DNA of 48,255 bases, taken from Desulfovibrionaceae bacterium (GTDB taxonomy: Bacteria; Desulfobacterota; Desulfovibrionia; Desulfovibrionales; Desulfovibrionaceae). Location of the stretch: assembly GCA_016932995.1 (NCBI GenBank), contig JAFGBU010000027.1:1-48255 (forward strand), written 5' to 3'. The notes under the pieces are model-generated. The model saw nothing but the letters and a program-made list of their open reading frames with translations. It ran no database searches and had not been told where the DNA came from. Shown one piece after another: positions 4,474-22,391 of this stretch. The number at the start of each line of letters is the position of its first letter. The first letter of the stretch is position 1. The position numbers and the translations under genes are program-made.

Positions 4474-4497
4474 GCCGGTCCGGCAAGCGGTGGCTCC

Positions 4498-4749
4498 ATG
4501 CTGATCGTTGACGATATCCTGGCTTTTCCCATCCGGAGCATCCTGTGGATTTTCCGTGAAATCCACAAGGCGGCCCAGAGCGAACTCGAGAACGAGGGCG
4601 AAGCTATCACCGCCCGGCTGAGCGAACTGTACATGATGCTGGAAACCGGCCGGATAACCGAGGCCGAGTTCGACGCAGAGGAAAAAAAGCTTCTGGATCG
4701 CCTGGACCGCATCCATGAATCCGAGCCCCCCGGCGGAAGGCGGCGATGA
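4498..4749 (+). CDS. gvpG: Gas vesicle protein GvpG
   Basis: The 83-aa helical product matches the GvpG family. It has a hydrophobic N-terminus (MLIVDDILAFPIRSILWIFR), a charged helix, and the conserved SELYMMLETGRITEAEFDA segment followed by EEKKLLDRLDRI. GvpG is an essential minor assembly protein always found beside gvpF/gvpL, as here. The ribosome site is weak (gcggtgg), which suggests coupling to gvpF. Confidence 0.9.
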   Translation: MLIVDDILAFPIRSILWIFREIHKAAQSELENEGEAITARLSELYMMLETGRITEAEFDAEEKKLLDRLDRIHESEPPGGRRR

Positions 4750-4813
4750 CGGGGGGAGATGAGTTCGGCGTTCGTTCACGGGGTTTGTGCGGCCAGCGTC
4801 GCCCGGGAGACAC

Positions 4814-6775: not shown

Positions 6776-7383
6776 CAACGCCCAGGCCAAGGGACGCGTC
6801 GGCGGACGAGTATGAGCACGTCAGCCTGTGCGAGGCCCTGGACCGGATATTGAACAAAGGCGCGGTGGTTTTTGGGGAGTTGACGATCTCCGTGGCCGAT
6901 GTGGATCTGATCTATCTGGGTGTCCAGCTCGTCCTCGCGTCCATCGAGACCGCGCGGGGCGGGCCGGACAAAGCGATGCGAAAGGACGAAACAAAGGGGC
7001 GAGACGATGAAGGCGCCGTCGGAAGCGAGGATGGATTCGCGGGACTTGGACGACTTCGCCAGGGCGTTGCAACGGGGAAACGACCGGTCGACGGGGGGGT
7101 CCAATCGGGAGGGCTTCAGGGCAACCGGCTGGATATCGGTGGGGAGAACGCCAAGAACGGACTGGGACAACTGGTCCTGACCCTGGTGAAACTCGTGCAT
7201 GAGCTCTTGGAGCAACAGGCCATCCGGCGGATCGAGGCCGGCTCTCTCGGCGAACAGGAGATGGAATGGCTCGGCCTGGCCCTGATGCGGCAGGGGCAAG
7301 AGATTGACCGGCTCCGCAAGGAGTTCGGCCTGGAAGAGGACGATCTAAACCTGGACCTCGGCCCTCTCGGCCGGCTTTTCTAA
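6772..7383 (+). CDS. gvpA2: GvpA/GvpS-type protein read in frame into GvpK
   Basis: A GTG start overlaps the ATPase stop (GTGA) with ggggagg upstream. Residues 18-62 (SLCEALDRILNKGAVVFGEL then ISVADVDLIYLGVQLVLASIET) are a GvpA-family module closest to GvpS/GvpM, minor shell proteins. Residues 119-203 are a complete GvpK core: LDIGGENAKNGLGQLVLTLV, IRRIEAGSL, and DLNLDLGPLG. No stop separates them, so as written this is a 203-aa fusion with a linker of about 55 residues. The linker looks artificial: from 7007 to about 7092 the high GC3 is in another frame. A frameshift is therefore likelier than a true fusion (see next entry). Confidence 0.75.
   Translation: MTTPRPRDASADEYEHVSLCEALDRILNKGAVVFGELTISVADVDLIYLGVQLVLASIETARGGPDKAMRKDETKGRDDEGAVGSEDGFAGLGRLRQGVATGKRPVDGGVQSGGLQGNRLDIGGENAKNGLGQLVLTLVKLVHELLEQQAIRRIEAGSLGEQEMEWLGLALMRQGQEIDRLRKEFGLEEDDLNLDLGPLGRLF
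7007..7383 (+). other. gvpK: Probable original gvpK gene, shifted at a G7 run
   Basis: An ATG at 7007 opens a high-GC3 frame (MKAPSEARMDSRDLDDFARA) resembling a normal N-terminus. At 7093-7099 a run of seven Gs lies just before the conserved core LDIGGENAKNGLGQLVLTLV appears in the neighbouring frame. One G missing from that run would explain it, giving a GvpK of about 125 residues. ATG at 7007 also overlaps a TGA (7008-7010) in the third frame, which may be the lost end of gvpA2. GvpK is needed for vesicle formation. A sequencing homopolymer error, a real mutation and a true fusion cannot be separated here. Confidence 0.6.
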
Positions 7384-7406
7384 GGTCCTTCAGGAGAGGA
7401 GCAGCC

Positions 7407-7733
7407 ATGACACGAAACGACAGGCGCGGCGGCATCCAGAGTTCCATGCAGAGCACGAATTTGGCGGACCTCCTGGAGCGGCTGCTGGACAAAGGGGTAG
7501 TCATCGCCGGGGACATCAAGATTAAGCTGGTGGAGGTGGAGCTGCTGACCATCCAGTTGCGGCTGGTCATCTGCTCGGTGGAAAAGGCCCGGGAAATGGG
7601 GCTGGACTGGTGGCTGGACAATCCGGCGTTCAAGTCCGGGACCAACTCCCCCGAGCTTATGGAGTCCCTTGGCAACATCGAGGACCGGCTGTCCCGGATG
7701 GAAGCGGCCCTGGCTTCGTCCGGTTCGGCGTAA
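7407..7733 (+). CDS. gvpJ: GvpJ-type minor gas vesicle protein (gvpA3)
   Basis: A 108-aa GvpA-superfamily protein. Residues about 18-65 read LADLLERLLDKGVVIAGDIK then ELLTIQLRLVICSVEKAREM, followed by GLDWW. The KA(K/R)EMG-DWW ending is typical of GvpJ rather than the main shell GvpA. The C-terminal third is a charged helix (NIEDRLSRMEAALASS). A good site (caggagagg) precedes the ATG, 23 bp after gvpK. The order S-type, K, J is the same as in Bacillus megaterium. GvpJ is thought to help form the conical caps or nucleate assembly. Confidence 0.88.
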   Translation: MTRNDRRGGIQSSMQSTNLADLLERLLDKGVVIAGDIKIKLVEVELLTIQLRLVICSVEKAREMGLDWWLDNPAFKSGTNSPELMESLGNIEDRLSRMEAALASSGSA

Positions 7734-7792
7734 AGCCATGGGCGGCGCTTGACCGGTTTATTCCCGTGAACGGCGGAATGCGTAATGGACCG

Positions 7793-8193
7793 ATGAACCG
7801 ATTCAAAAACATATTCGTCATGTCGAAATCCAGAAGATATCGATATGAAAAATATTTTGAACAAGGCATCGCGAAAAAAATTCTGTTCCTCGACGACGAA
7901 CAGATGATGCTCAGTTCTTTGAATCGAAGAATGCATAGGTTGCGAGAATGCTGGAACGCCGGATTTGTGGATAACGGTTATGCCGCTTTGGAAGCCATGG
8001 AAAATACAATATCGACGTAATTATTTGCGATCTATGCATTCTAGAGATGGACGTGGTTCAACTTTTCAAGGAGCTTAAGAGGCTATAGCCTCATGTTATA
8101 CGGGTAATCCTGACCGGAGTTACGGATAGTGAAGGCCAAATAGTTTCTCTTCCAACGCATATTCATAGATATCTATCCAAGCCATGCAGCTAG
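7793..8193 (+). pseudogene. Degenerate response-regulator receiver gene
   Basis: An AT-rich stretch unlike its neighbours. The frame from 7793 gives KKILFLDDEQMMLSSLNRRM, a receiver-domain start, and stops at 8020. After a one-base loss in the A-run near 8001-8004 the next frame continues IDVIICDLCILEMDV, with the phospho-acceptor Asp. It meets an in-frame TAG at 8086, then resumes PHVIRVILTGVTDSEG and HIHRYLSKPC, the end of a receiver domain. Adding back one base gives a continuous 134-codon ORF apart from the amber stop. It is clearly dead, and probably once a RpfG-like two-component regulator. It sits between gvpA3 and gvpY. Confidence 0.8.
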
Positions 8194-8519
8194 GAATCAA
8201 TAATAAAGCTACGTTTTATCTGCATTTGAAAGAATGTGAGTTTTACTTTAACAACAGGGGGGAGGACCTCTAGCAGGCGCCCCTCAAAATCCTCAGGGAA
8301 GCTCCCCTGTTCTAGTCATGACCCCTGGCAATAACGAGCTGAGTTGCGCGATTCGACCCAGCGCAACTTCGCCAAACATTTTCAGCACTGCCCTGGCCAA
8401 CCCACCCGGGCATCCCAACCCTTGGAGTTGCCCCCATAAACCGGACACTCCTGTTGTGCACATGACCATCGCCGCCGTCCCGCCGCCTCCGACGGGTTCT
8501 TGTTGCGCCCATTCTCGGC
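8194..8519. other. Unassigned stretch with an imperfect inverted repeat
   Basis: I see no credible gene here. Arms at 8253-8264 (aacaggggggag) and 8302-8311 (ctcccctgtt) can pair around a 37-nt spacer with two bulged Gs. The reverse-strand frame of the WYL fragment stays open through 8293-8519, but the translation does not look like a family member. It may be fused junk or a second relic. Confidence 0.3.
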
Positions 8520-8916
8520 GGCGGTCCCGGATGGCCAGGAACAGCGCCTCGATGGCCTCCTGGCGCGGGGTGTAGTCGATGGCCCCCTTCACCCGAGCGC
8601 GGGTGAAGGGGGCCAGGGCCTCGGAGCGCTGCTCCATGTCCGGCAAAAGCACCGTGGACTGGGCGATGGTGTTCTCCTCGTCGCGCCGGATGTTCTTGGG
8701 CATCAGGTGCCGGACCATGTCCCGGCAAAGCAGCAGGTGCTGGACGCGCTCCGGGGTGAGCGGGACGTTCGGCCGCGTGCGTAGCGGCTTGACCCGGAAC
8801 CAGCGCTTGCCGTCCTCGATCCAGGACTCGATGCCCACCTCGTGTCTCTTTTCGATCTGCTCGATCATGCGCAGGACGCTCTGCTTCGAGCACTCCAGGT
8901 CCGTCTCACAACAAGC
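8520..8916 (-). pseudogene. WYL-family transcriptional regulator fragment
   Basis: The reverse strand reads LECSKQSVLRMIEQIEKRHE (second half of an HTH) and continues GIESWIEDGKRWFRVKPL. The linker region includes RVQHLLLCRDMVRHLMP and GAIDYTPRQEAIEALFLAIR, which resembles the entry to a WYL domain. There is no start codon: the frame begins right after a TGA at about 8923. The WYL core itself is absent, the match ending near 8520. It is truncated at both ends. It probably arrived with, or was cut by, mobile-element activity between gvpA3 and gvpY. Confidence 0.5.
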
Positions 8917-8983
8917 TTCTCAACCAGCTAAAAACACGGGTTAAACAGCGTAGGACAACCCCCCTTATTTTTTGTATATTCCC

Positions 8984-9014
8984 TTGACAAATTAACATTC
9001 GCTGGGGTTATGTA
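8984..9014 (+). promoter_or_regulatory. Candidate sigma-70 promoter for gvpY-gvrA
   Basis: TTGACA at 8984-8989 and TATGTA at 9009-9014, 19 bp apart, in an AT-rich pocket about 100 bp before the gvpY start. TTATGT at 9008 gives an 18-bp spacer. The relics upstream would otherwise cut gvpY off from the main gvp transcript. Confidence 0.45.
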
Positions 9015-9117
9015 TAAATATATATGGTTATTATATGGTCGATATTTTGACGAAAAACACTTCGGCACAATACGGGTTGCTCCGCACAGGCGAAGGGCCC
9101 GGGGTCGATTGACGGCC

Positions 9118-9768
9118 ATGAACACAGCAAACAACCCGAAAGCATCGTCCAGGACCCTGATTTATCTGCCTATCGTCCATACCCTGGCGGACATGGGGGG
9201 CCTTGGCGAAACGGTGTTGCAAAAGACCCTCCAGAAGCTGGGCCGCAAGCGGTATTCCCGTAAATCCGAGGCCATAGACGCAATGTGGGGGGAAATCGAG
9301 CGGGTCGTGGGCGCCCTGCCCCTGGCCTGGGACAAGGTTCGCCTGTACCAGGACGGCTTGCCGGTCTGCGGCCGGGAGACGGATATCGTGACGGACCTGG
9401 CCCAGGCGGGGAGCAGAAACCATCAACTCCTGCTGCGCCTGATGCACAAGGGCGCGGCGCTCATGGGGACCGAATCGGCCGACCTGTTGGTGCAGGAATA
9501 CCAATTGGTCCGGCAATCCCTGGCAGCCGAGGGCCCCGCCCGTTTAGCCGGAGAACCGCACTCATCGAAAAGCGTCGTCGGGAGCGCCGCGCTGCTTGAG
9601 CGCCGCGACCAGTACATCGCCCGGCGGATCAATGAAACCATCGGGCCGGGCGAAACGGGCATACTCTTTTTGGGGATGCTTCATTCCCTGGCAGCGCTGC
9701 TCGATAAGGATATAGGGGTGGAGTTCCCTCTGCATCGGCCCCTTGGCGGTTTCGGGGAGGTAAAATGA
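9118..9768 (+). CDS. Conserved gas vesicle cluster protein (gvpY position)
   Basis: The 216-aa soluble protein has no motif I can tie to an enzyme. It begins NPKASSRTLIYLPIVHTLAD; the middle (WGEIERVVGALPLAWDKVRL and LPVCGRETDIV) is helical. The C-terminal third (RDQYIARRINETIGPGETGI then LFLGMLHSL) looks like a conserved block. I chose the ATG at 9118; an ATG at 9010 is open but lies within the AT-rich promoter stretch and would add poorly coding residues. Its stop overlaps the gvrA start (ATGA), so the two are translationally coupled. By position it corresponds to gvpY of Serratia 39006. Confidence 0.6.
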   Translation: MNTANNPKASSRTLIYLPIVHTLADMGGLGETVLQKTLQKLGRKRYSRKSEAIDAMWGEIERVVGALPLAWDKVRLYQDGLPVCGRETDIVTDLAQAGSRNHQLLLRLMHKGAALMGTESADLLVQEYQLVRQSLAAEGPARLAGEPHSSKSVVGSAALLERRDQYIARRINETIGPGETGILFLGMLHSLAALLDKDIGVEFPLHRPLGGFGEVK

Positions 9769-11138
9769 CATTACGCAACAGCCGGGTGCTGATCGTCGAC
9801 GACGAGGCCGATATTTGCCTGATGCTTTCCCACCTCATGGATCGCGAGGGGTTCATCAGCCTGACGGCCCATGACGGGGAGGCGGCCCTGAAAATGATCG
9901 CGCTCAAAAAGCCCGATCTGCTCCTGGTGGACATCAAGATGCCCGGCATGGACGGGATGGAGCTCCTCAAGCGGGTCAAGGAGCTGGATCAGGACCTGCC
10001 CGTGATCATGATCACCGCCTTCGCCCACGTCACCGGGGCGGTGGCGGCCATGAGGGGCGGGGCTTACGATTACCTGTCCAAGCCGTTCGAGCACGCCATG
10101 GTCGTCCGCCTGGTGCGTCACGCCCTGAACGAGAGGGTGCGCCGGCGGCGGCTTCTGGACATGGCCGACCAGGCCGCCGGGGACGCCTCCCTCAGGGACC
10201 GGATGGGTTGCAGCGAGGCGGTGAGCCAGATCATCGAAAAAGTGAATCAGGTGGCCAATTCCGACTTCAACGTGCTGATCCAGGGCGAAACCGGTTCCGG
10301 CAAGGATCTGGTGGCCCGCGCCATCCACCAGTTGAGCCGCCGCGCCAAGGGGCCCTTCGTCCCGGTGGACTGCGGAGCCATCCCCGAGACCCTCATCGAG
10401 AGCGAGATGTTCGGCTATCAGAAGGGGGCCTTCACCGGGGCGGTCGGGGCCAAGCCCGGGAAGTTCGAAATAGCCCGGGGGGGGACGCTCTTCCTGGACG
10501 AAATATCCAACCTGCCGCTGTCTTCCCAGGCCAAGCTGCTCCGCGTCTTGCAGGAGAAGACGGTCTACCGTCTGGGGGCCACCAAGGCCGTGCTTGTCGA
10601 TGTCCGGCTGCTGGCGGCCACCAACCAGGACTTGAGCCAGAAGGACGCGGCCTTGATGCGCGACGATCTGTTCTTCCGCTTAAACGAATTCAGCCTGACC
10701 ATCCCCCCCTTGCGCGAGCGCAAGCAGGACATCCCCTACCTGTGCAACCGCTTCCTGGCGCTCACCAACGCGGAGCTGCACAAGAACATCGGGGGAATAT
10801 CTGAATCGTGCCTGGAAATCCTGACCGCGTACGACTGGCCGGGGAACGTGCGCCAATTGCGTTCCGTCATCCGCCGCGCAGTGCTCCTGGCCGAGGACAC
10901 GATCACGGAAAAGCAGTTGGACATCAAGGGAGTCGTGGCCGCGGGCATGGCCTTCGTTCCCAGAATGCAAAAGATGCCCTGGCACGCCCACTCCTTCAAG
11001 GAGATCGTGCGCGACGGGGTGAACTCCATTGAAAAGGAAATCCTGGGCCGGGCCATGGAATACACCGGCGGCAACAAGGCCAAGGCGGCAAGGCTGTTGC
11101 GCATAGATTACAAAACCATGCACACCAAGCTCAAATAG
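9765..11138 (+). CDS. gvrA: NtrC-family sigma-54 response regulator (GvrA-like)
   Basis: The 457-aa product has a receiver domain (1-120; acidic pocket VDDE, phospho-acceptor Asp56 in LLVDIKMPGMDG, Lys in YLSKPF). The sigma-54 AAA+ domain follows (about 145-385), with Walker A GETGSGKD, the sigma-54 contact loop KGAFTGA, and Walker B GGTLFLDEIS. The C-terminus is a Fis-type HTH (YTGGNKAKAARLLRIDYKTM). It activates RNA polymerase-sigma-54 when phosphorylated. Placed inside the gvp cluster, it matches GvrA, reported to control gas vesicles in Serratia 39006. The kinase gvrB at 15,420 is a plausible partner. I found no clear GG-N10-GC promoter in the window's gvp gaps. Confidence 0.9.
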   Translation: MTLRNSRVLIVDDEADICLMLSHLMDREGFISLTAHDGEAALKMIALKKPDLLLVDIKMPGMDGMELLKRVKELDQDLPVIMITAFAHVTGAVAAMRGGAYDYLSKPFEHAMVVRLVRHALNERVRRRRLLDMADQAAGDASLRDRMGCSEAVSQIIEKVNQVANSDFNVLIQGETGSGKDLVARAIHQLSRRAKGPFVPVDCGAIPETLIESEMFGYQKGAFTGAVGAKPGKFEIARGGTLFLDEISNLPLSSQAKLLRVLQEKTVYRLGATKAVLVDVRLLAATNQDLSQKDAALMRDDLFFRLNEFSLTIPPLRERKQDIPYLCNRFLALTNAELHKNIGGISESCLEILTAYDWPGNVRQLRSVIRRAVLLAEDTITEKQLDIKGVVAAGMAFVPRMQKMPWHAHSFKEIVRDGVNSIEKEILGRAMEYTGGNKAKAARLLRIDYKTMHTKLK

Positions 11139-11166
11139 TTCGGTCTGCAGAAACCGGGGGGAAGAG

Positions 11167-11691
11167 ATGACTAGGAAAAAAAAGACGCCGTCCGGGGAAG
11201 AGGGCGCAACATGCGGTTTCCGCAGCCTGTTCACGGGGCTCGGGGAACTCATCGAGAAGGTCGGCTACCTGACCGAAAAAGGGGAAGAGCTGAAAAGAAG
11301 CAATGAGATCCTGGGCAAGGGCCTGGAAAAGGGGTTCAAGGGGGTCTACGGGATATCGGTCAAGATGGGCCTGGGCGACCGGGACATCAAGGTGGAGCCC
11401 TTCGGCAACCTCCAGCGGGACACAGAAACCGGAGAAGCCGAGGTCCAGGAGATCCGGGAGCCGGTGGTCGATGTCCTCGAGGAGAAGGACCATCTCCTGG
11501 TGGTGGCCGAAATGCCCGGCATCGGCGTCAAGGACGTGCGCCTCCAGGTCAAGGATGATCTGCTGACCATCGACGCCGCCAAGGGTGATAAGAAGTATCG
11601 CAAGGAGATACTTCTGCCCCGGAGCTACCCCCGGGAGAAGATAGGCATCTCCTGCAACAACGGCATCCTCAAGATCAAGTGCGTCCAGTGA
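11167..11691 (+). CDS. gvpH: Hsp20-type gas vesicle protein GvpH
   Basis: The 174-aa product has a helical N-terminal half (residues 1-90; SLFTGLGELIEKVGYLTEKG). The C-terminal alpha-crystallin/Hsp20 domain is about 95-174, with EPVVDVLEEKDHLLVVAEMP, the GI.VKDVRLQ strand, and CNNGILKIKC matching the Hsp20 A-x-x-x-G-x-L motif region. GvpH family proteins share this layout and may act as chaperones for hydrophobic Gvp proteins. The gene overlaps the open frame of the following ATPase and starts 28 bp after gvrA. Confidence 0.85.
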   Translation: MTRKKKTPSGEEGATCGFRSLFTGLGELIEKVGYLTEKGEELKRSNEILGKGLEKGFKGVYGISVKMGLGDRDIKVEPFGNLQRDTETGEAEVQEIREPVVDVLEEKDHLLVVAEMPGIGVKDVRLQVKDDLLTIDAAKGDKKYRKEILLPRSYPREKIGISCNNGILKIKCVQ

Positions 11692-11711
11692 ACAAGGGAT
11701 CGGGAGTCGGC

Positions 11712-13838
11712 ATGCAGGAATTCGAAGGCGCGTCGCTCAAGCTCAAGGTGACGGAAGCCCTGACCAAGGATGTCGGCAGGGCTTACGCCCGCATGGGGCC
11801 GGAGGACCAGGAGCGGTTGGGGCTCACCATCGGCGACAGCGTGGAAGTCGTCGGGAAACGCAGGACGGTGTGTAAGGTGATGCCCGCTTACAAGGAATTG
11901 CGCGGCCAGTCCAGGGTGCAGCTGGACGGGCTGACCCGCGACAACACCGGGGCCGGGCTCGACGAATTCGTGCAGGTGCGGAAAATCGCCTGCCGCTCGG
12001 CCGAGCGGGTGGTGCTCACGCCGGTCACCCTCATCCCGGCGGACCGGGACCTGAAATACATCGGCAGCCTTCTGGACGGCCTGCCCGTTTTGGAGGGGGA
12101 CAGAATCCGGGCCACCCTCTTCGGCAGCCGGTTCGCCGATTTCAAGGTGGAAAGCTTGAGCCCCAAAGGTCCGGTGTTCATCAACCCCACCACCGCTTTG
12201 GTGATCGGCAAGAAGCGCGGCGAGGAGTTCCCCCGGGCCGCGTCCTACGAGGACATCGGAGGACTCAAGGGCCAGCTCCAGCGCATCCGGGAGATGATCG
12301 AACTGCCCTTGCGCTATCCGGAACTCTTCGAACGCTTGGGGATCGACGCCCCCAAGGGCGTCCTTCTCCACGGGCCTCCGGGATGCGGCAAGACGCTCAT
12401 CGCCCGGACCCTCGCCCATGAGACGGACGCCAACTTCTTCTCCGTGAGCGGGCCGGAGGTGGTGCACAAGTTCTACGGCGAGTCCGAGGCCCACCTGCGC
12501 AAGATATTCGAGGACGCCAGTCGCAAGGGGCCGAGCATCGTCTTTTTGGACGAAATCGATTCCATCGCCCCACGCCGAGAGCGGACCGTGGGCGATGTGG
12601 AGAAAAGGGTTGTGGCGCAGCTGCTCGCCCTGATGGACGGCCTGGCCAAGCGCCAAAACGTCATCGTCATCGCCGCCACCAACATCCCCAACGCGCTCGA
12701 TCCGGCCTTGCGCCGCCCCGGCCGTTTCGACAGGGAAATCGTCATCCCCATTCCCGACCGGCACGGTCGCGAGAAAATCCTGGAGATCCACAGCCGGGGC
12801 ATGCCTCTGGCCGGGGACGTGGACCTGTCCCACTTGGCCGATATCACCCACGGGTTCGTCGGGGCCGACCTGGAGGCCTTGTGCCGGGAAGCGGCCATGA
12901 TCTGCCTGCGCCGCCTCATGCCGGACATCGATCTGGCCCTGGCCCATATCCCTTATGATCTCTTGGGGAAGCTCGAAGTGTACATGGATGACTTCCTGGC
13001 CGCCCTGCGCGAGGTGGAGGCCTCGGCGATCCGGGAGGTGTTCGTGGAGGTCCCGGATGTCCGCTGGCGGGATGTGGGCGGGCTTGGACGGGTCAAGGAC
13101 CGCCTCAGGGAGGCGGTGGAGTGGCCCCTCAAGTACGACCGCCTCTTCAAGCAGGCGGGGATCAAGCCCCCCAAGGGGATTCTTCTGGCCGGGCCGCCCG
13201 GTTGCGGCAAGACCATGCTGGCCAAGGCCCTGGCCACGGAAAGCCAGGTGAATTTCATCTCCGTGAAGGGCGCGGAGCTTATGTCCAAGTATGTGGGCGA
13301 GTCCGAACGGGGGGTCAGAGAGGTCTTCCGCAAGGCTAAGCAGGCCGCCCCCTGCATCATCTTCCTGGACGAGGTCGACGCGCTGTTGCCCGCGCGAGGG
13401 TCCGGCGGATCGGATTCCCACGTTCCCGAACGAGTCCTCAGCCAGTTCCTCGCGGAGCTGGACGGTATCGAGGAGCTCAAGGGAGTTCTGGTGCTCGGGG
13501 CCACCAACAGGCTGGACATCCTGGATGGCGCGGTGCTTAGGCCCGGCCGGTTCGACGAGATCGTGGAGATTCCCGTCGCCGATAGACAGGACCGGTTGGA
13601 AATCTTTCAGGTCCACCTGCGGGACAAGCCCCTGGCCGAGGGGGTCGACCTGGAGGATCTGGCGGACAAGTCCGAGGGGCAAAGCGGCGCGGCGATCGCC
13701 TCCATCTGCAACAAGGCCGCCCTCAGGGCCGTGCGCCGGGCCGTGGATGGCCTGTGCCGGTCTCCAGACCAGGAGACCTGCGTGCTCATCGAGCCCGCCG
13801 ATCTGGAAGCCGCCCTGGCGGCGGAGCGCGAGGCTTAG
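11712..13838 (+). CDS. CDC48/VCP-type double AAA+ ATPase of the gas vesicle cluster
   Basis: The 708-aa product has the full CDC48/VAT layout. A double-psi barrel N-domain (about 1-185) is followed by D1 with GPPGCGKTLIARTLAHE (about 222), Walker B IVFLDEIDSIAPRRE and RRPGRFDREI. D2 has GPPGCGKTMLAKALATE (about 494), CIIFLDEVDALLPARG and LRPGRFDEIVEIP. Both rings appear catalytically complete. CDC48-type unfoldases extract or remodel proteins; here vesicle assembly, turnover or aggregate control is inferred. An ATG at 11712 preceded by cgggag was preferred to a GTG at 11688 overlapping gvpH's stop. By position it equals Serratia gvpZ, but I am unsure the families match. Confidence 0.88.
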   Translation: MQEFEGASLKLKVTEALTKDVGRAYARMGPEDQERLGLTIGDSVEVVGKRRTVCKVMPAYKELRGQSRVQLDGLTRDNTGAGLDEFVQVRKIACRSAERVVLTPVTLIPADRDLKYIGSLLDGLPVLEGDRIRATLFGSRFADFKVESLSPKGPVFINPTTALVIGKKRGEEFPRAASYEDIGGLKGQLQRIREMIELPLRYPELFERLGIDAPKGVLLHGPPGCGKTLIARTLAHETDANFFSVSGPEVVHKFYGESEAHLRKIFEDASRKGPSIVFLDEIDSIAPRRERTVGDVEKRVVAQLLALMDGLAKRQNVIVIAATNIPNALDPALRRPGRFDREIVIPIPDRHGREKILEIHSRGMPLAGDVDLSHLADITHGFVGADLEALCREAAMICLRRLMPDIDLALAHIPYDLLGKLEVYMDDFLAALREVEASAIREVFVEVPDVRWRDVGGLGRVKDRLREAVEWPLKYDRLFKQAGIKPPKGILLAGPPGCGKTMLAKALATESQVNFISVKGAELMSKYVGESERGVREVFRKAKQAAPCIIFLDEVDALLPARGSGGSDSHVPERVLSQFLAELDGIEELKGVLVLGATNRLDILDGAVLRPGRFDEIVEIPVADRQDRLEIFQVHLRDKPLAEGVDLEDLADKSEGQSGAAIASICNKAALRAVRRAVDGLCRSPDQETCVLIEPADLEAALAAEREA

Positions 13839-13839
13839 C

Positions 13840-14643
13840 ATGTCCAGGGGATTGTATCTTTTCTGCCTGGCCCGTTCGGGTCTTTTACCCTCCTTCGAGG
13901 GGAGGGTGATCGATGGCCTGGGGCCCATGACCCTTCGCTCCTACCGGGATATCGCCGCGGTCTTGAGCGAGGTCTCCTTGGAGGACGCGATCGGCACGGA
14001 TGGGGAAACAGGGCTGCGGGAACCCGTCCGGACGTGGCGGCGGGCTTTGCGGCACGAAGAGGTGGTGGAGAAGGTCATGTGCTCTTGCGGCGTGCTTCCG
14101 GCCCGGCTGGACACCGTTTTTTCCAGTTGGGAAAGCCTGGAACGGGTTTTGCGAGCCCACCACGAGATCATCTCGCGGTTTCTGGACCGGGCCGCCGGCC
14201 GCGATGAATGGGCGGTCAAGGCGTTCCTGGATCGGGCCAGGGCGAAAGAGGCCCTTTTTGCCGACAAGCTCGCCCAAGAGGAGCACAATCTGGCCGCGTC
14301 GTCCACGGGCCTGCGTTATCTTCAGGTACAGCGCCTGCGCAAGGGCCTGGGAAACGAAGCGAGCCAAAAAATGCGGGAGGCCTGCCTCCAGGCCGAGGTG
14401 CGCCTGCGCGGGCATGCCAATGATTTTCGCCGGCGGGATGTGCTTTGCCCGGAGGCCTGCGGAGACCGGGAGATGATCATGAACTGGGCCTTTTGGGTGC
14501 CCCGGGAAAACACCGATGCCTTCAGGGCGTGCCTGGAAGACGTAAGCGGCCTCCAGGCCGGCGGCGGTCTCGTTCTGGAATGCACCGGGCCCTGGCCACC
14601 GTACAGCTTCTCGCCGTGCCTGGAAAAGGAGGCCGCGTCGTGA
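13840..14643 (+). CDS. gvpF2: GvpF/GvpL family protein (copy 2)
   Basis: The 267-aa product is a divergent GvpF/GvpL. It starts SRGLYLFCLARSGLLPSFEG and has the family motif in the form VMCSCGVLPARLDTVFSSWE. Long central helices follow, then a C-terminal ECTGPWPPYSFSP, matching the family's GPWPPYSF ending. The ATG lies one base after the CDC48 gene's stop, and the gvpF3 start overlaps its own stop, so all three are coupled. It probably acts with GvpF1 in assembly initiation. Confidence 0.85.
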   Translation: MSRGLYLFCLARSGLLPSFEGRVIDGLGPMTLRSYRDIAAVLSEVSLEDAIGTDGETGLREPVRTWRRALRHEEVVEKVMCSCGVLPARLDTVFSSWESLERVLRAHHEIISRFLDRAAGRDEWAVKAFLDRARAKEALFADKLAQEEHNLAASSTGLRYLQVQRLRKGLGNEASQKMREACLQAEVRLRGHANDFRRRDVLCPEACGDREMIMNWAFWVPRENTDAFRACLEDVSGLQAGGGLVLECTGPWPPYSFSPCLEKEAAS

Positions 14644-15370
14644 GCCGCCTAGTGTACTGCATCCTGCCCCGGCCGGCGACGGACCTTGGCGCGCACGGGA
14701 CGGGCGTCGACGGCCAACCCGTATGCTTGGTGTCGCATCGCGACCTGAGCGCGGCCACCTCGTTGCTGTCCAGGAAGAATATGCAACCCGACATCTCCCG
14801 GCTACGCGCCTATGAGCGGGTTGTCGCCTTGTTCCACAGCCGAAGCGCCGTCATCCCCATGCGCTACGGCTGCGCGGCGGATGACGAATCGCAGGTCGTC
14901 CGGATGGTTATGGAACATGCCGAGGAACACGGCCTTCTCCTCAAAGAGCTGGAGGGCTGCACTGAGATCGGACTGCGGATTCTGCCGGCGGGCCAGCCCC
15001 TGCCCGCCATGCCCCCTCCCTCCCCGGCCGGCGACGGCGCCTGCCCGCGTACCGGCTTGGACTACTTGCGCGCGCGGATCATTATGGCCGGGAGAAGCGT
15101 TGGCGGGAGGAGTGCCGCCAAACGGCCGAGCGCTGCCGCAAGGCCCTGGCCGGATGGTTCGTCAAATGCTTCAGCGAACCGCCCTCTCCCCGCACCCCGC
15201 TGTTGTCCATGTATTTTTTGGTGCGGCGCGGGGAAATCGAATCGTTTCGGCGAGCGTTCGACGAATACCGCGCGGCGGAGCCGGCCAAGCTGTTACTGAC
15301 CGGTCCCTGGCCGGCCTATAATTTCGTGGCCATGGACCTCCGCCTCAAATCGCCGCAAAACCGTGAATGA
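14640..15370 (+). pseudogene. gvpF3: GvpF/GvpL family gene (copy 3) with a one-base frameshift
   Basis: A GTG start overlaps the gvpF2 stop. The frame reads SRLVYCILPRPATDLGAHGT, then the family motif in SRSAVIPMRYGCAADDESQV and RTGLDYLRARIIMAG, then loses homology at about 15,091. The neighbouring frame continues EKRWREECRQTAERCRKALA and ends LTGPWPAYNFVAMDLRLK, the GvpF/L signature, stopping at 15,368-15,370. One G missing from the GGG at 15,090-15,092 restores a 243-aa protein. As written, translation runs in the wrong frame to 15,299. Either a recent mutation or a homopolymer error; other copies could compensate. Confidence 0.85.
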
Positions 15371-16910: not shown

Positions 16911-17336
16911 ATGACGACAAGCAACGATAACAACAGCGAATTGATCCTCATCGTCGACGATGAAGTGGACATATGCTGGTCGCTTGAATATATACTGAAT
17001 AAGAACAATTTTTGTACGGCCATAGCCACCAGTGCCCGCGACGCTTTGCTGACCCTGCGCAAGCAGCGCTTCCATCTTGTCTTCATCGACGCCAAACTTC
17101 CGGATATAGACGGCCTGGAGCTGGCCAGGCAGATCCGCCTTATTGATCCGCACATCAGCATCGTGATGGTTTCCGGGTATTTTTACGAGGACGACGTTTT
17201 GGTGCAGCAAGCCATCGGCCAAGGCCTGATCAGCGCGTTCATCAGCAAACCGTTCCTCCAGGAGGAAATCGTCAGGGTGCTCGACAGCCCGTTTAAAAAA
17301 GCGTCATCTGTATTCATGAACAAAGCGCAAAGCTAA
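16911..17336 (+). CDS. gvrC: Stand-alone receiver-domain response regulator (GvrC-like)
   Basis: The 141-aa product is a single receiver domain: acidic pocket VDDEVD, phospho-acceptor Asp60 in LVFIDAKLPDIDGLE, Ser in VMVSGYF, and Lys in AFISKPFLQEE. A short tail without an output domain follows. It is 6 bp downstream of gvrB and almost certainly its partner; it could relay or compete for phosphate with the gvrA receiver. As GvrC does in the Serratia cluster, it closes the gvp region. Confidence 0.85.
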   Translation: MTTSNDNNSELILIVDDEVDICWSLEYILNKNNFCTAIATSARDALLTLRKQRFHLVFIDAKLPDIDGLELARQIRLIDPHISIVMVSGYFYEDDVLVQQAIGQGLISAFISKPFLQEEIVRVLDSPFKKASSVFMNKAQS

Positions 17337-17677
17337 AGGCGTATTGCATGCCAGCGTGCCGTGGGCCGAGGCAAAGGGTTGGTTCGCCTTGTCGGCGGGA
17401 GCACTTCAAGACCGGCTAGTTCTGCAATTCGCCTCCCTCATTCGCTGCAAGAGAAGGTTTAGGGACTACCCCCGCGCGGGCGGGGAAGCCTTCCCCCCGC
17501 CCTGATAGAGAGGGGATTGAAATCCCGCAAAGGCCATGCCCGTCCCTGCCGGGCCGGCGAATTTGGCGGCATGGCCTTTGCGGACCGCAAACCAACGCGA
17601 CCGATCAGACGGCCCGGCTTGAGATTGCCATTCGTTTCGGCTAGATATGCAACGCCAAAACAAAAGCCGGAGAAACC
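17337..17677. other. Gene-free gap with two hairpins after gvrC
   Basis: No credible gene in 341 bp. An imperfect GC-rich hairpin occupies 17,478-17,502. A perfect 16-bp inverted repeat lies at 17,525-17,540 and 17,568-17,583 with a 27-nt spacer, its arms carrying gcaaaggccatgcc. They could end the gvr transcript or mark a recombination edge, because downstream DNA is mobile-element debris. The phrase ggggattgaaat resembles a CRISPR repeat end, but there is no second copy. Confidence 0.55.
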
Positions 17678-18372
17678 ATGGCCATCGCCCATCAGCTCAA
17701 AGACATCCTCGCCGACCTGAACATCCTCCCCCGGCGTCTCTCATTGCGCACCCCGGGCGTTCAGGCCACGGTTCCCATGCTGCGCGGGGTCTTCGGCGCG
17801 GCCCTGCACGACCTCGAACCGGACGCCTACGCCGAGGTCTTCATCGGCCTGGGCGGTCATGCGCACATCGCCGCCGTCCGCAACGTGCGGGAACTCATGC
17901 GCGTGGCCGTGCCGGAAGAACCGGTCGCAGACAAGAAAGATCAGGAAGGTGTGGACAGCGTTCAGCGGTTTTACGCCCCCATGCGATATGGGGACGCAGT
18001 GTATACCGTGTCGATGCTGGTGAAGAATTACAGAGGGAGCGTTTTTTTGAGGCCGAGGAAGTCCGTAAGCTCTACGATCTCCAGGTGGAAAAAGAGATGC
18101 CCGCTGATTCTCGCCAAGATGTCCGGCCGCCGGGGCAGAGGTCTTGGCTCAACGGGCACCGCAAAATTACCCTAAGGCGAATGCTCGAAGGCGTCAATGG
18201 GAGTGAAGGCGAAACTCTGTTTCAGACCGGCCCTGTGCTTGAAGTGCGTGGGGACGAGCTCGGCTCGGGCCTGTCTCTGAAAAAACTCCGTGACGCAGCA
18301 AAGCAAAAAGCCCCGGCTGCGGCCGAGGCTTCTTTGGACACCGCTCACGGGGCTACCCGGGGTTCGGGCTAG
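17678..18372 (+). pseudogene. Chimeric phage-type polyvalent protein remnant (PBECR-like)
   Basis: The first 65 or so residues (LRTPGVQATVPMLRGVFGAA then LHDLEP) carry an LRGxxGxAL phrase faintly like RAMP/Cas6 N-termini. Then comes a different module, DKKDQEGVDSVQRFYAPMRY followed by GDAVYTVSMLVKNY, resembling PBECR-type nuclease domains of phage polyvalent proteins. At about 18,025-18,045 the frame breaks: the first frame ends at 18,175, while the neighbouring one continues ERFFEAEEVRKLYDLQVEKE and KITLRRMLEGVN to a TAG at 18,370-18,372. The pieces suggest a deletion fusion plus a frameshift. An A/T-flanked stem-loop lies at 18,308-18,331. Confidence 0.5.
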
Positions 18373-18423
18373 CTTGCCGGCAACAAAGCAAAGAGCGGTA
18401 TCCGTAAAAACAACTTAGACATC

Positions 18424-18502
18424 TTCGCCGATGGAGTCAACATCGGCCTGCGCGAACCTGGACACACCTTCCACCAGGCCGGGCCCGGACCCAAGGGCGC
18501 GG
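18424..18502 (+). repeat. 79-bp direct repeat, copy 1
   Basis: This segment recurs at 18,638-18,716 with 3 mismatches, 214 bp downstream. It encodes FADGVNIGLREPGHTFHQAG in the frame of the polyvalent-protein relic. The duplication and the unrelated 135 bp between copies indicate insertion or slippage within the relic. Confidence 0.9.
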
Positions 18503-18513
18503 GGAGTTGGCAT

Positions 18514-18540
18514 CAAAAGAAACCCCGGCCGGAGCCGGGG
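18514..18540 (-). terminator. Rho-independent terminator on the reverse strand
   Basis: On the reverse strand, ccccggc-tccg-gccgggg is followed at once by tttctttt. It has no reverse-strand gene to serve here, so it was probably left behind by a lost gene between the two 79-bp repeats. Confidence 0.55.
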
Positions 18541-18619
18541 ATTCTGGGGCGTCGCCTCTGGCATTGACCGGCAAGGCCGGTTCAAAAATCCCCCGTACAA
18601 TCGGGCTGGGCGACACCAC

Positions 18620-19488
18620 AGAAATTGTATAGACCTTTTCGCCGACGGTGTCAACATCGGGCTGCGCGAACCTGGACACACCTTCCACCAGGCCGGGCCC
18701 GGACCCAAGGGCGCGGTCCAGTTCCTGGACGACGGCCGGGCCATGTTGCGCCTGTTCGAGACCGGGGACGTAACCACCGTCATCCACGAGACCGGGCATA
18801 TCCTGCGCCGGCAGCTGGGCGAGCGCGACCTGGCCGTGATCGAGGCCTGGGCCGCCTACCACGAGCTGGCCGAGCCGGTGGCCGTGTTTGATTCCGCGAC
18901 CATGGCCAACAGCTTCGTGGTGCCGACCGGTGCTTTTGACGCGCAGGGCCGGCCGATCCTGGCGGCCGTGCATCTGGCAGTGCGGCACGGGCGGCTTGAG
19001 GTCAACGAGATCGCAAGCGTCTACGGGCGTGAGAACGCTTCGGCGTGGTTGCGGCAGCAGATTGACGCGCGACGGGTGCTCTATCTGGATAAAAAGAAGG
19101 CCGCCGAGGTGCAGAGATCCGGCAGGCTCCAATCGCCAAGGGAGATGCACCGCGGCGGTAAAAAAAAATAGTCACCGAGGCCGACGTTGTCAAGCCCGTC
19201 ACGCCCGAGGACCTGGCGGAGAGCGGACCCCGCTTCGCCCGGGCCGTGGACGAGGCCGCCGAGGTCGAACAGGCCAAGGGCGAGGACCCGGCCGCCGAGA
19301 TCGAGGCCGAGCGCACCTTCTGCAACCAGATCCACGAGGCCCGGGACCTGGCCGTGCACCAAGTGGGATTGAGGGCCATGGCCCTACAGAGGGAGGTCCA
19401 GCATTTGGCCGAGGAACGATGGCGGATAGGCGGCCTTTGCAAGCCGCTTATCCATAGCTTGTCCACGATGGGGATGTGGGTGGTGTAA
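18620..19488 (+). pseudogene. Polyvalent-protein remnant with zincin and PBECR-like segments
   Basis: From the second 79-bp repeat the frame reads VQFLDDGRAMLRLFETGDVT, then TTVIHETGHILRRQLGERDL, an HExxH zinc-peptidase motif as in phage polyvalent proteins. It moves abruptly to SFVVPTGAFDAQGRPILAAV and LEVNEIASVYGRENASAWLR, resembling a PBECR-type nuclease domain. That frame ends TAG at 19,171 after a nine-A run. The next frame continues VTEADVVKPVTPEDLAESGP and EAERTFCNQIHEARDLAVHQ to TAA at 19,488. I read it as one decayed multi-domain gene of phage or conjugative origin, with an internal deletion and a homopolymer frameshift. Confidence 0.6.
18638..18716 (+). repeat. 79-bp direct repeat, copy 2
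   Basis: Second copy of the repeat at 18,424-18,502. This copy is continuous with the HETGH-containing frame and so is probably the original. Confidence 0.9.
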
Positions 19489-19490
19489 CT

Positions 19491-19530
19491 ATTGGCGCGG
19501 CATGGAGGATTCGAACCCCCGACCGTCGGC
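19491..19530. repeat. attL: 40-bp duplicate of the tRNA-Arg 3' end
   Basis: It is identical over 40 bp to 22,046-22,085, which covers the acceptor stem, T arm and part of the anticodon stem of tRNA-Arg on the reverse strand. A second 3' end of the tRNA without its 5' half is the classical footprint of tyrosine-recombinase integration into a tRNA gene. This copy marks the distal end of the integrated element. Identity stops exactly at the anticodon stem-loop. Confidence 0.93.
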
Positions 19531-19559
19531 AGAAGACATTTGGTGTATCGTATCCCGAG

Positions 19560-19585
19560 ATTACCCGCGATTACCTGATGTTACC
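19560..19585 (+). promoter_or_regulatory. Three TTACC motifs phased at 10 bp inside attL
   Basis: ATTACC at 19,560, ATTACC at 19,570 and GTTACC at 19,580 are exactly 10 bp apart, so they lie on one face of the helix, 30 bp inside the att repeat. Such spacing suits integrase arm-type or excisionase sites, but that role is inferred. Confidence 0.4.
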
Positions 19586-19755
19586 TTTCTTGCCTAAAAA
19601 ATGAAGTTTTTTGGGTCTAAACTCAAATGGTTTTTCTCTAGTTTTGGTCAAGCGATTTCGAAAAATTTGTTTTGGCGGTCAGGTTCGTTAACTAGTGGTC
19701 GTTTGAGGAGGGTTGAGAAGGTTTATAAAGACATTTGCTTCATCGAAGAAGAGAG

Positions 19756-19786
19756 TTGACTGTCATGTTTTATGCGGTTATATAAT
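19756..19786 (+). promoter_or_regulatory. Sigma-70 promoter of the NACHT-like gene
   Basis: TTGACT at 19,756-19,761 is followed by TATATA at 19,779 (17-bp spacer), overlapping a perfect TATAAT at 19,781-19,786. It is the only promoter-like pair I see in the element, pointing at the single gene and leaving a leader of roughly 95 nt. Confidence 0.6.
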
Positions 19787-19887
19787 CTTTTAACTAATTC
19801 AGTCGAGAGGAAATTTCTCGTTTTAGATAACGTTGGATCATTGAACTCCACCAACAGCCTAAACCTTCAAAGTTAACAAGGTACGAC

Positions 19888-21990
19888 ATGGATTACTACG
19901 GATTAAAATCTATTATATCTTCGCAGAAGCAGCAAGTCATGCTTAGAAAAAATACGGATTCCTTTTTTGTGCCCACAGAACGGCAGCCGACCTATGTTGA
20001 GCCAAAATTCTCGAAGGTTGAGTTCCCTGTAGAAAAACCAGCCGTCATCTTGATTTCCGCCGTTGGGGCTTCCGGCAAGACGGCCACAGCCCAAGCCTTG
20101 TCCAAGGACACGGACATCCCGATTTTGGATTTGGCCAAGCACAAGCCCGTTGGCGATAGCACCCTCTCCGGAATTCTGATTGACCATTATCCTGACAATA
20201 CGACAGACATCCTAATGGGGCTGGCTAAGGGTGAATGCGGTATCATCATCGACGGGATTGATGAGGGCAGGAATAAAGTAACCGAAGAAGCTTTCGAAGC
20301 CTTTTTGGATGATGTGGTCAAGCGCACCAAAGACGCGCAATATAATTCCATCGTTATACTTGGAAGAAGTGAAACCCTCATTAATACCTGGTGCTATCTT
20401 AAAGACCAGAATGCAAATGTAGGCTTATTAAAGATCAATACTTTTGATATAGATCAAGCAAAAAGATATATTGATATTCATGTTGCTGAATTTAAGTCAG
20501 TTCAAGAAACTATTTATAAAGAAGTAAGGGATGATATTTTAGAAAAACTTGGAGCCGCATTCAAAGTTGATGAAAAAGATAAAGATGCTTTTATTGCATT
20601 CCTTGGCTATCCACCTGTTCTAAATGCAATCTCAACATTGTTATGTGAGGAAAAGAACTATCACCGTCTCCGCAAGGAGTTAAACAGTGGAGACGGGGAA
20701 AATTTGGAAGTCAATCTTCTCATTAGCATCGGTGACTATCTTCTTGATCGCGAGCAAAAAGAAAAGGCCAAACCAAATCCCATCAACGAAATAGCGGACA
20801 ATGTAGGGGGCCAGGAAGGCAATTATCTCAAAGAGAATCTCTACAATCGGCAAGAGCAGTGTGCGCGTATTCTCGCGTTGACACTTGGTTCTAATTTAAA
20901 GCGTAAGTTAATTAACGATCCAGGTATCAATCAAGCATATGAAAATAAAATCAAAATATTATGCTCCGAGCATCCTTTTTTACAAGAAAAAAAATTACGG
21001 AATCCTGTTTTTGAAGCAATCTCTTTGGCAAGATGCGCTCTTAGCGAAATAGATGAGTACCGGGAATTAGCTTTCACATATTCCATGCGTATTAAGCCGA
21101 CATATCATTTGTTATACATTGTCGATGCTCTTTCTTCTGATAGAAAAGTCGATTTTTATTTTTTCAACATGCTTATGCAGTCGTGTACAGATTTTATTGG
21201 AATAAAATCGTCTATTTCAATCGATGTTGAAGGGGATTTGTGGGATGATGAAAATATAAAAAAAGGAAGTATGCTTACACTTTCAATTTATCTAGATAAT
21301 GATTATCAAAAACGAACTTTTATTTTCAATTCTTCAGATGAGATAAATGAATCGGCCCAGTTCGGTCCAAATTTTATAAATACTAGAATGGCATTACCAT
21401 GCGATATTGCCATGGTTGGAATAAATACAATACATATTTATGGAGAATGCTTAATATCAGCAAAAAATGTTGAGGTTAGATCGCCAGAGATTTTTGTATC
21501 TCGTCTTCCCCAATTGCATAAGAATGGGATGCCTTCACAAGCAAGTCTTACAGTTGATGCAAAAGATGTATTTGGTCATGTTGATATTATTTCTCCAAAT
21601 GACGCATTAGTTGAAGTTATATGTTCTAGTCACAAACTTGACTATCCTTTATCAAAGCATGCAAAGACAATACAAAGGTCAATCCTACGCCCAGATATTC
21701 AAAAAAAGTACAATATACTTAGAAGAATACTTATCGTTTTTAGATCGCATTCTAGGGGTGGCTTGGCAAGATACAAAGGAAAAATAGAACATAGGCGTAT
21801 TTTAAAGAATGATGGGAAAGCAGTACTGGAGGCGTTGTGTAGGGATGGCATATTAACGCATGACACCAATTTCTACTACATTCAGCCACAGGTCCTTTCC
21901 GAAAGACTGGGTATAAATTGGGATGATCTAAAGCAAAAGAAGTCTTCTCCACAGCTTGAGGAGTACCTTTCTAATATAAACCCAGTGTAA
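19888..21990 (+). CDS. NACHT/STAND-like P-loop NTPase, candidate defence protein
   Basis: The 700-aa product is AT-rich coded, unlike every neighbour. Walker A AVGASGKT lies at residues 58-65. Walker B is IIIDGIDE at 119-126; hhhhDGhDE is the NACHT/STAND form. SIVILGRSE at about 154-162 fits the sensor strand (NACHT proteins have TSRP-like here). Helical segments follow to about 420. A beta-rich region covers about 430-560, and a winged-helix-like end about 635-690 (GKAVLEALCRDGILTHD). No signal peptide or membrane segment. The upstream site is weak (caagg). It is the only gene between the att repeats. NACHT-type proteins include single-gene phage defences; that role here is inference. A non-defence regulatory STAND ATPase is possible. 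Confidence 0.65.
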   Translation: MDYYGLKSIISSQKQQVMLRKNTDSFFVPTERQPTYVEPKFSKVEFPVEKPAVILISAVGASGKTATAQALSKDTDIPILDLAKHKPVGDSTLSGILIDHYPDNTTDILMGLAKGECGIIIDGIDEGRNKVTEEAFEAFLDDVVKRTKDAQYNSIVILGRSETLINTWCYLKDQNANVGLLKINTFDIDQAKRYIDIHVAEFKSVQETIYKEVRDDILEKLGAAFKVDEKDKDAFIAFLGYPPVLNAISTLLCEEKNYHRLRKELNSGDGENLEVNLLISIGDYLLDREQKEKAKPNPINEIADNVGGQEGNYLKENLYNRQEQCARILALTLGSNLKRKLINDPGINQAYENKIKILCSEHPFLQEKKLRNPVFEAISLARCALSEIDEYRELAFTYSMRIKPTYHLLYIVDALSSDRKVDFYFFNMLMQSCTDFIGIKSSISIDVEGDLWDDENIKKGSMLTLSIYLDNDYQKRTFIFNSSDEINESAQFGPNFINTRMALPCDIAMVGINTIHIYGECLISAKNVEVRSPEIFVSRLPQLHKNGMPSQASLTVDAKDVFGHVDIISPNDALVEVICSSHKLDYPLSKHAKTIQRSILRPDIQKKYNILRRILIVFRSHSRGGLARYKGKIEHRRILKNDGKAVLEALCRDGILTHDTNFYYIQPQVLSERLGINWDDLKQKKSSPQLEEYLSNINPV

Positions 21991-22007
21991 ACAAGAGCAC
22001 ATAAGTA

Positions 22008-22041
22008 GAGAAGCCACCTTCATCCCTGAAGGTGGCTTCTC
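22008..22041. terminator. 15-bp stem-loop between the NTPase gene and attR
   Basis: Perfect 15-bp arms (22,008-22,022 and 22,027-22,041) around a tccc loop, 18 bp after the NTPase stop and 4 bp before the att repeat. It can end the NTPase transcript and, read the other way, the tRNA-Arg transcript, insulating the two. Confidence 0.75.
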
Positions 22042-22045
22042 GAAA

Positions 22046-22085
22046 ATTGGCGCGGCATGGAGGATTCGAACCCCCGACCGTCGGC
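22046..22085. repeat. attR: 40-bp repeat within tRNA-Arg
   Basis: Partner of 19,491-19,530. It contains the 3' 38 nt of the functional tRNA, so the incoming element rebuilt an intact tRNA gene. The distance between repeats gives an excised circle of 2,555 bp. Confidence 0.93.
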
Positions 22086-22124
22086 TTAGAAGGCCGATGC
22101 TCTATCCTACTGAGCTAATGCCGC
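22048..22124 (-). tRNA. tRNA-Arg (anticodon TCT)
   Basis: On the reverse strand a full 77-nt cloverleaf folds. The acceptor pair is GCGGCAT/ATGCCGC with discriminator G and an encoded CCA. The D arm is GCTC/GAGC; the anticodon stem TCGGC/GCCGA holds loop CTTCTAA (TCT); the T arm is GGGGG/CCTCC around TTCGAAT. It reads AGA codons, which are rare in this GC-rich genome but more likely in AT-rich mobile DNA. It is the integration target of the element on its 3' side. Confidence 0.96.
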
Positions 22125-22139
22125 GCGCAGGTGGACTCC

Positions 22140-22168
22140 TAACTAATCAAGCCCGCCCCGCCGGTCAA
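22140..22168 (-). promoter_or_regulatory. Putative tRNA-Arg promoter
   Basis: Reverse strand TTGACC (22,163-22,168) with a 17-bp spacer to TAGTTA (22,140-22,145), placing the start a few bases before the mature 5' end. The -10 is weak. The tRNA-His gene has the same TTGACC -35. Confidence 0.4.
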
Positions 22169-22391
22169 GAAAAACGCTCGTTGCCTTGAGGGCCCTTCAA
22201 CCCGACAATCCCCGCGCCCGCCAGAAAGTGTTTTACCTCTGGTTTCTTTTTCAATAACATTTAAACTTAGAAAGAAAAAAGTCCCAAAGATGCCGCCTTC
22301 TTTGAGGCCCTGGGCCGCGGCAGGGTCTTGCGCCTCCCCGGAGGTCCCCGGCCGCACCGTTTGAAAAAGACCGCTGACAGGATGGGACGCC

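Follow-up and report, generated by a model that had tools for sequence, protein, structure and literature searches.

A 2,555-bp segment with a single NACHT-like gene between two tRNA-Arg(TCT) 3'-end copies: a candidate one-gene integrative element in a Desulfovibrionaceae bacterium

We identified, in a 48,255-nucleotide stretch of DNA from a Desulfovibrionaceae bacterium (referred to below as the window; contig C32 of a 2.48-Mb genome in 49 contigs), a segment of 2,555 bp that is bounded by two copies of the 3' end of tRNA-Arg(TCT) and holds one gene, which encodes a NACHT/STAND-like P-loop NTPase. On balance, we are inclined to regard this segment as a non-autonomous, CIME-like one-gene element that entered the chromosome by means of the tyrosine integrase of another element. 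The boundaries, the lone gene, the absence of an integrase, the presence of other elements at the same tRNA, the fold class of the product, and a one-gene relative in Propylenella binzhouense were all derived from sequence. The features are listed in Table 1.

A preliminary description of this DNA had reported a perfect 40-bp duplication of the tRNA-Arg(TCT) 3' end, and we confirmed both copies, which are spaced 2,555 bp apart. The repeat begins 2 bp past the 3' end of the tRNA gene and ends at the edge of the anticodon loop. The stretch from the 3' end of a tRNA to its anticodon loop is the usual footprint of tyrosine-integrase sites, and many of these enzymes cross over at the anticodon loop. 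A 26-bp core pattern of the repeat matched just two sites genome-wide with up to 2 mismatches allowed; that is, no third attachment copy was found in the 2.48-Mb genome at this tolerance. The GC content between the copies is 38.5%, compared with 62% in the 10 kb to the left and 69% in the 10 kb to the right, and the base composition shifts sharply at both copies.

The AT-rich DNA between the repeats holds a single open reading frame of 700 codons and no integrase, as the preliminary description had stated: the integrases of relatives gave no tblastn match at E<1 across positions 17000 to 22300, and the small open reading frames of the leader had no PHROG match. Nor did tblastn detect in the gap any integrase remnant, which would have pointed to a larger decayed island. 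The gene had also been credited with its own promoter, and this claim is unproven. The best candidate found by eye is TTGACT-N19-TATAAT at 19756-19786, and a consensus scan, in which promoter-like sites were no more frequent than in shuffled sequences, lends it no support. The three-unit 10-bp repeat lies 30 bp inside the left copy; it was expected 0 times in shuffles of the window, and its pattern is unique in the genome. No arm repeats were found at the right end of the element. The stop codon is separated from the right copy by 55 bp that contain a perfect hairpin; thus, the terminal hairpin described earlier is real, but it was not called a terminator by the scan. This inverted repeat is a candidate for the hairpin at the gene end, for a replacement 3' hairpin of the tRNA, or for both, and similar hairpins occur at the same place in the elements of relatives. 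No attC-like site, such as an integron gene cassette would have, follows the gene in the window. As to the resemblance to a phage satellite suggested earlier, helper-related replication or packaging genes of the PICI or PLE type were not present among the open reading frames of the element.

Table 1. Features of the segment, its left flank, and the displaced tRNA fragments of relatives (window coordinates unless a genome is named)
Feature	Position	Strand	Basis or remark
Fragment with large-polyvalent-protein domain 3 (LPD3-like), outside element	17678-18175	+	PF18798, 2.4e-5, below Pfam cut-off
Giant phage protein fragment, MuF C-terminal domain, outside element	18431-19171	+	PF18819, 4e-22; phrog_616
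CTTATCC-repeat-like stretch outside left copy	19446-19465	.	17/20 match to the 40-kb elements of two relatives
Left attachment copy, displaced tRNA-Arg(TCT) 3' fragment, 40 bp	19491-19530	-	Perfect direct repeat
Non-coding leader, 357 bp, 38% GC	19531-19887	.	By-eye promoter candidate inside
10-bp unit in three tandem copies (ATTACC/ATTACC/GTTACC), possible arm sites of an integrase, or iterons	19560-19589	+	30 bp inside left copy
Only gene of the element; NACHT/STAND-like P-loop NTPase of 700 aa, beta-rich domain and winged helix at the C terminus	19888-21990	+	Open reading frame, alignment, structure model
Perfect inverted repeat, 15-bp arms	22008-22041	.	Between gene end and right attachment copy
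Right attachment copy, within intact tRNA-Arg	22046-22085	-	Perfect direct repeat
Target gene tRNA-Arg(TCT), intact, made whole at its 3' end by the element	22048-22124	-	ARAGORN; Rfam RF00005, 71.8 bits
Far 3' fragment, distance from tRNA-Arg	G002, 40 kb; G163, 43 and 60 kb; G281, 11.4 kb; G180, 9.7 kb		

In agreement with the earlier proposal of a tRNA-integrated unit, relatives proved to use tRNA-Arg(TCT) as an integration hot spot. At least 4 of 119 family genomes have a displaced 3' fragment, 45 to 50 bp long, and in the genomes G002, G163, and G281 a tyrosine integrase adjoins the tRNA, the elements there being autonomous and 11 to 43 kb long. G163 carries two such elements in tandem (L093 and L094; C1:1853000-1882000), the outer with GGAGCA-type and the inner with CTTATCC-type repeats. 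In a soil provirus, too, an integrase, identified by reading, lies directly beside tRNA-Arg(TCT). Besides, the segment in G180 that is bounded by tRNA-Arg(TCT) copies (L088; G180:C1:215300-226100) carries genes for an aldehyde ferredoxin oxidoreductase, FdhD, a two-component pair, and a glutamate-synthase-like protein, with no integrase among its ten main open reading frames. Thus, integrase-less att-bounded segments at this tRNA are not unique to the window. An apparent tRNA-Ala 3' fragment lies at the tRNA-proximal end of the G180 segment.

The preliminary description held that the segment would have to be mobilized in trans, and for this part of the proposal the genome yielded no helper: none of the resident tyrosine integrases, which include one at tRNA-Glu and a broken one, was found to have arm repeats matching the candidate ones of the element, and the 10-bp repeats were found nowhere else in the genome. 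The integrase of contig C20 (L243, 10-1283) abuts tRNA-Glu(TTC), and its relatives are found at tRNA-Glu in many family genomes. We rejected it as a resident helper, because it is not at tRNA-Arg; its upstream DNA ends with the contig. The relative G195 has five RTTACC units upstream of a tRNA-Glu integrase. We nevertheless rejected the three RTTACC units of the element (period 10) as arm sites of that integrase, because the 98% identical integrase of G063 lacks them, as do nearly all of its other relatives with upstream DNA. A GATTACC match in G116 was found to lie in a flagellar gene. Among 108 viral contigs with RTTACC repeats of this kind, none had them near an integrase as judged by a small, insensitive profile. 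This profile missed integrases that Pfam found, and our claims of absence rest on Pfam, PHROGs, and tblastn.

Outside the left copy lie fragments of phage genes (Table 1), of which the MuF piece is similar to large proteins of Escherichia and Stx phages. An 87-bp tandem duplication (94% identical; 18416-18502 and 18630-18716) is present in the decayed phage gene remnant. The prophage remnant is adjoined by a gas vesicle cluster at 3712-15299 of the window, with gvpF/L, gvpK, gvpA-type genes, a sigma-54 regulator, and a CDC48-like AAA protein. Within the 45 bp that precede the left copy, a 20-bp stretch resembles the CTTATCC repeats of the 40-kb integrase elements of G002 and G163, which lie next to the tRNA-proximal end there; its match was reached by 0 of 200 chromosomal chunks, and judging from this sequence it is likely to be the end of an older accreted element. 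Since the decayed prophage end is directly outside the left repeat, the small element appears to have accreted to an older prophage-like element. A place between the decayed end of such an element and the tRNA is what tandem accretion usually produces (PMC5704250).

An alignment of 38 sequences of the NTPase family keeps a Walker A motif (GAxGK[TS]), a Walker B motif (DxxDE), and a C-terminal FRSHSxG...KI motif. The residues A61xGK64 and D122xxD125E126 of the window protein are invariant or nearly so in this alignment. In the AlphaFold model of the 700-residue protein (pLDDT 88.5, pTM 0.83), residues 1 to 430 match NACHT domains (NLRP3: Z 11.3, rmsd 3.8, 220 residues aligned), and NOD2 was the best Foldseek match. 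The C-terminal 300 residues modeled alone (pLDDT 91) combine a beta-rich region with a winged helix, and their matches were only weak; beyond the generic winged helix, no solved structure exceeded Z 6. Pfam and NCBIfam gave, for members of the family, only subthreshold or single-member matches to nSTAND3, NACHT, Avs3a, and EruA, and the window protein itself had no match to a curated NACHT model above the cut-off and none in PADLOC. As modeled, the protein has the P-loop NTPase fold of NACHT type, complete with both Walker motifs, that marks bNACHT proteins, and its predicted structure places it as a NACHT/STAND-like NTPase outside the named families.

By an alignment-based scan, we found 46 relatives across many phyla. 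The family is nevertheless rare and scattered: a clear homologue is present in just 3 of 395 genomes of the phylum, none of 58 related genomes has a close relative of the window gene, and phages and viral contigs have no homologue. Some homologues are plasmid-borne. Among the neighbors of homologues we found genes for type I restriction, Shedu, and Schlafen-type proteins, a cytosine methylase, an abortive-infection gene, and a multiubiquitin-E1 operon. Given the NACHT-like fold and the defense genes beside its relatives, the window gene is likely to have an antiphage role, and to that extent the earlier idea of a defense cargo holds. On an Acidithiobacillus plasmid (L010:3810-8007), a relative of the NTPase gene lies directly 3' of an operon for multiubiquitin, ThiF/E1, and a DUF6527-like protein; this locus is possibly a ubiquitin-like defense operon that includes the NTPase.

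The family recurs, independently of the window case, as a one-gene insertion bounded by direct repeats, which accords with the earlier notion of a minimal cargo element. In the alphaproteobacterium Propylenella binzhouense, a homologue 24% identical to the window protein is the only gene between two direct repeats of 45 bp, perfect copies of the lepA 3' end, and no integrase lies there (L046:3442-5750). Its gene begins about 50 bp after the lepA stop codon and ends 21 bp before the second copy. In 10 relatives of this genome the lepA 3' end is single and the gene is absent, and in a synteny comparison seeking the empty site, the DNA downstream of lepA differed between these relatives. The Propylenella genome has several tyrosine integrases at other places, and no lepA 3' end was found in viral contigs. 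The target gene differs from that in the window, and the two cases have no repeat in common outside the gene. Next to the lone gene are tRNA-Ala(CGC) and another 3' fragment of a tRNA.

Among 48 homologues, a long perfect repeat pair surrounds the gene in two (window and Propylenella), and weaker pairs were seen in the loci L026 and L019. In L026 (Bacteroidota), the gene lies between two 21-bp perfect repeats (7835-7855 and 10669-10689) that sit within longer imperfect repeats with hairpins; it is possibly a third repeat-bounded insertion of the family. The tRNA-adjacent homologues of Caulobacter (L038) and Holophagaceae (L040) were discarded as repeat-bounded units, having no direct repeat longer than 12 bp. 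Furthermore, attC-like sites follow the homologues L014 and L019, which are 47% and 45% identical to the window protein and belong to its closest relatives; L014 has two such sites, 2.25 kb apart. L016 and L028 may also have attC-like sites.

We infer three things beyond these observations, namely, entry as a one-gene unit, a helper integrase, and a defense activity. The element would have arrived as a circle whose single gene was accompanied by a duplicate of the tRNA-Arg(TCT) 3' half, its attachment site. The enzyme that inserted this circle would be the tyrosine integrase of another element with the same tRNA-Arg target. Integration would push the old tRNA 3' fragment leftward, where it now abuts the decayed prophage end in a tandem accretion, and the copy brought by the element would restore the 3' end of tRNA-Arg. 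The cargo NTPase would be a stand-alone NACHT/STAND type, most probably antiphage. Its C-terminal beta-rich and winged-helix part would detect an invader or attach to nucleic acid, and oligomerization of the NTPase, driven by ATP, would turn on a growth-arresting response.

It is also conceivable that a larger integrase-bearing island at the tRNA decayed in place until only its att sites and one gene were left. The decayed prophage remnant directly outside the left repeat makes the loss of other genes, the integrase included, a serious rival explanation: decay has already taken place next door, CIMEs are well documented, as is their accretion with other elements (PMC5704250), no helper integrase was found, and the candidate arm repeats persist at one end only. 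On the other hand, no remnant of lost genes was seen, and the gene and the two ends are whole and lie close together. Decay would, moreover, need to have reached the same end point a second time in another phylum, where the one-gene Propylenella insertion arose independently. This recurrence speaks for a family that is able to move in single-gene form and against decay having left such a unit twice, and we consider decay in place a doubtful, if substantial, alternative to insertion by a helper.

Other histories seem less probable still. The left repeat might be the right end of the older prophage, the gene having come in between by homologous or illegitimate recombination without being att-bounded; the sequence left of this copy does match the tRNA-proximal end of the 40-kb elements of relatives. 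Tandem site-specific integration, however, gives just such an arrangement, both copies differ on their inner sides from the prophage end, and the composition shifts at both, so we judge this history improbable. The attC-like sites after L014 and L019, which are among the closest relatives, would suit a former integron cassette captured in a tRNA-targeted element; yet the window gene has no such site and its boundaries are tRNA copies, and we give this origin very little credence.

Insertion of a one-gene circle, our favored reading, has a wider and more tentative extension. It might be, although we think it rather unlikely at present, that the NACHT-like family spreads as one-gene "integrase cassettes," inserted by any helper integrase that uses the site. 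Such a cassette, on the same tentative footing, would be a circle in which nothing but a duplicate 3' end of a tRNA or protein gene accompanies the gene. If true, integrase cassettes would be the tyrosine-integrase counterpart of integron cassettes. The segment shows that an integrative element can be as small as one gene with an attachment copy, and the units in which this family seems to move are among the smallest mobile ones known. The case further links NACHT-like genes of the stand-alone kind with several mobile settings: tRNA-bounded, lepA-bounded, attC-like cassettes, and plasmids. Surveys that require an integrase miss such units, which perhaps carry bacterial immunity genes unnoticed.

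Elements that depend on a helper have, as a class, been well reviewed (PMC11389934). Hitcher elements, such as MITEs, integron cassettes, and CALINs, likewise consist of cargo and a recombination site and are moved by the recombinase of another element, whereas the window element is bounded by a tRNA 3' end and not by inverted repeats or attC (PMC11389934). Like the tRNA genomic islands of the Islander survey, it comprises an intact tRNA and a displaced 3' fragment in the right order and orientation, more than 2 kb apart, but it lacks the integrase that this survey requires (PMC4383910). Islander resolves tandem arrays only if every member has its own integrase, and because it rejects integrase-less candidates, elements like ours are invisible to it (PMC4383910). 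The cargo resembles the bacterial NACHT antiphage proteins, especially those of clade 14, which have no discernible effector, in being a single gene with a NACHT-like fold and no recognizable N-terminal effector; it differs in scoring below the NACHT model cut-off, in its C-terminal beta-rich and winged-helix part, and in that its activity is putative (PMC12169576). A further likeness is to cis-mobilizable elements, or CIMEs, which are att-bounded, have no integration or transfer genes, and accrete beside another element in one tRNA (PMC5704250). The window element keeps both attL and attR and has no such genes between them, but it comprises one gene in 2.55 kb, has a same-family one-gene counterpart at another target, and has no known parent element, no such ICE or IME having been found in 119 family genomes searched by tRNA or in 58 searched by gene. 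Elements that are att-bounded and integrase-less are known under the name of CIMEs; what is new is the one-gene size, a NACHT-like cargo family that is nameless in four libraries, and a parallel case in another phylum.
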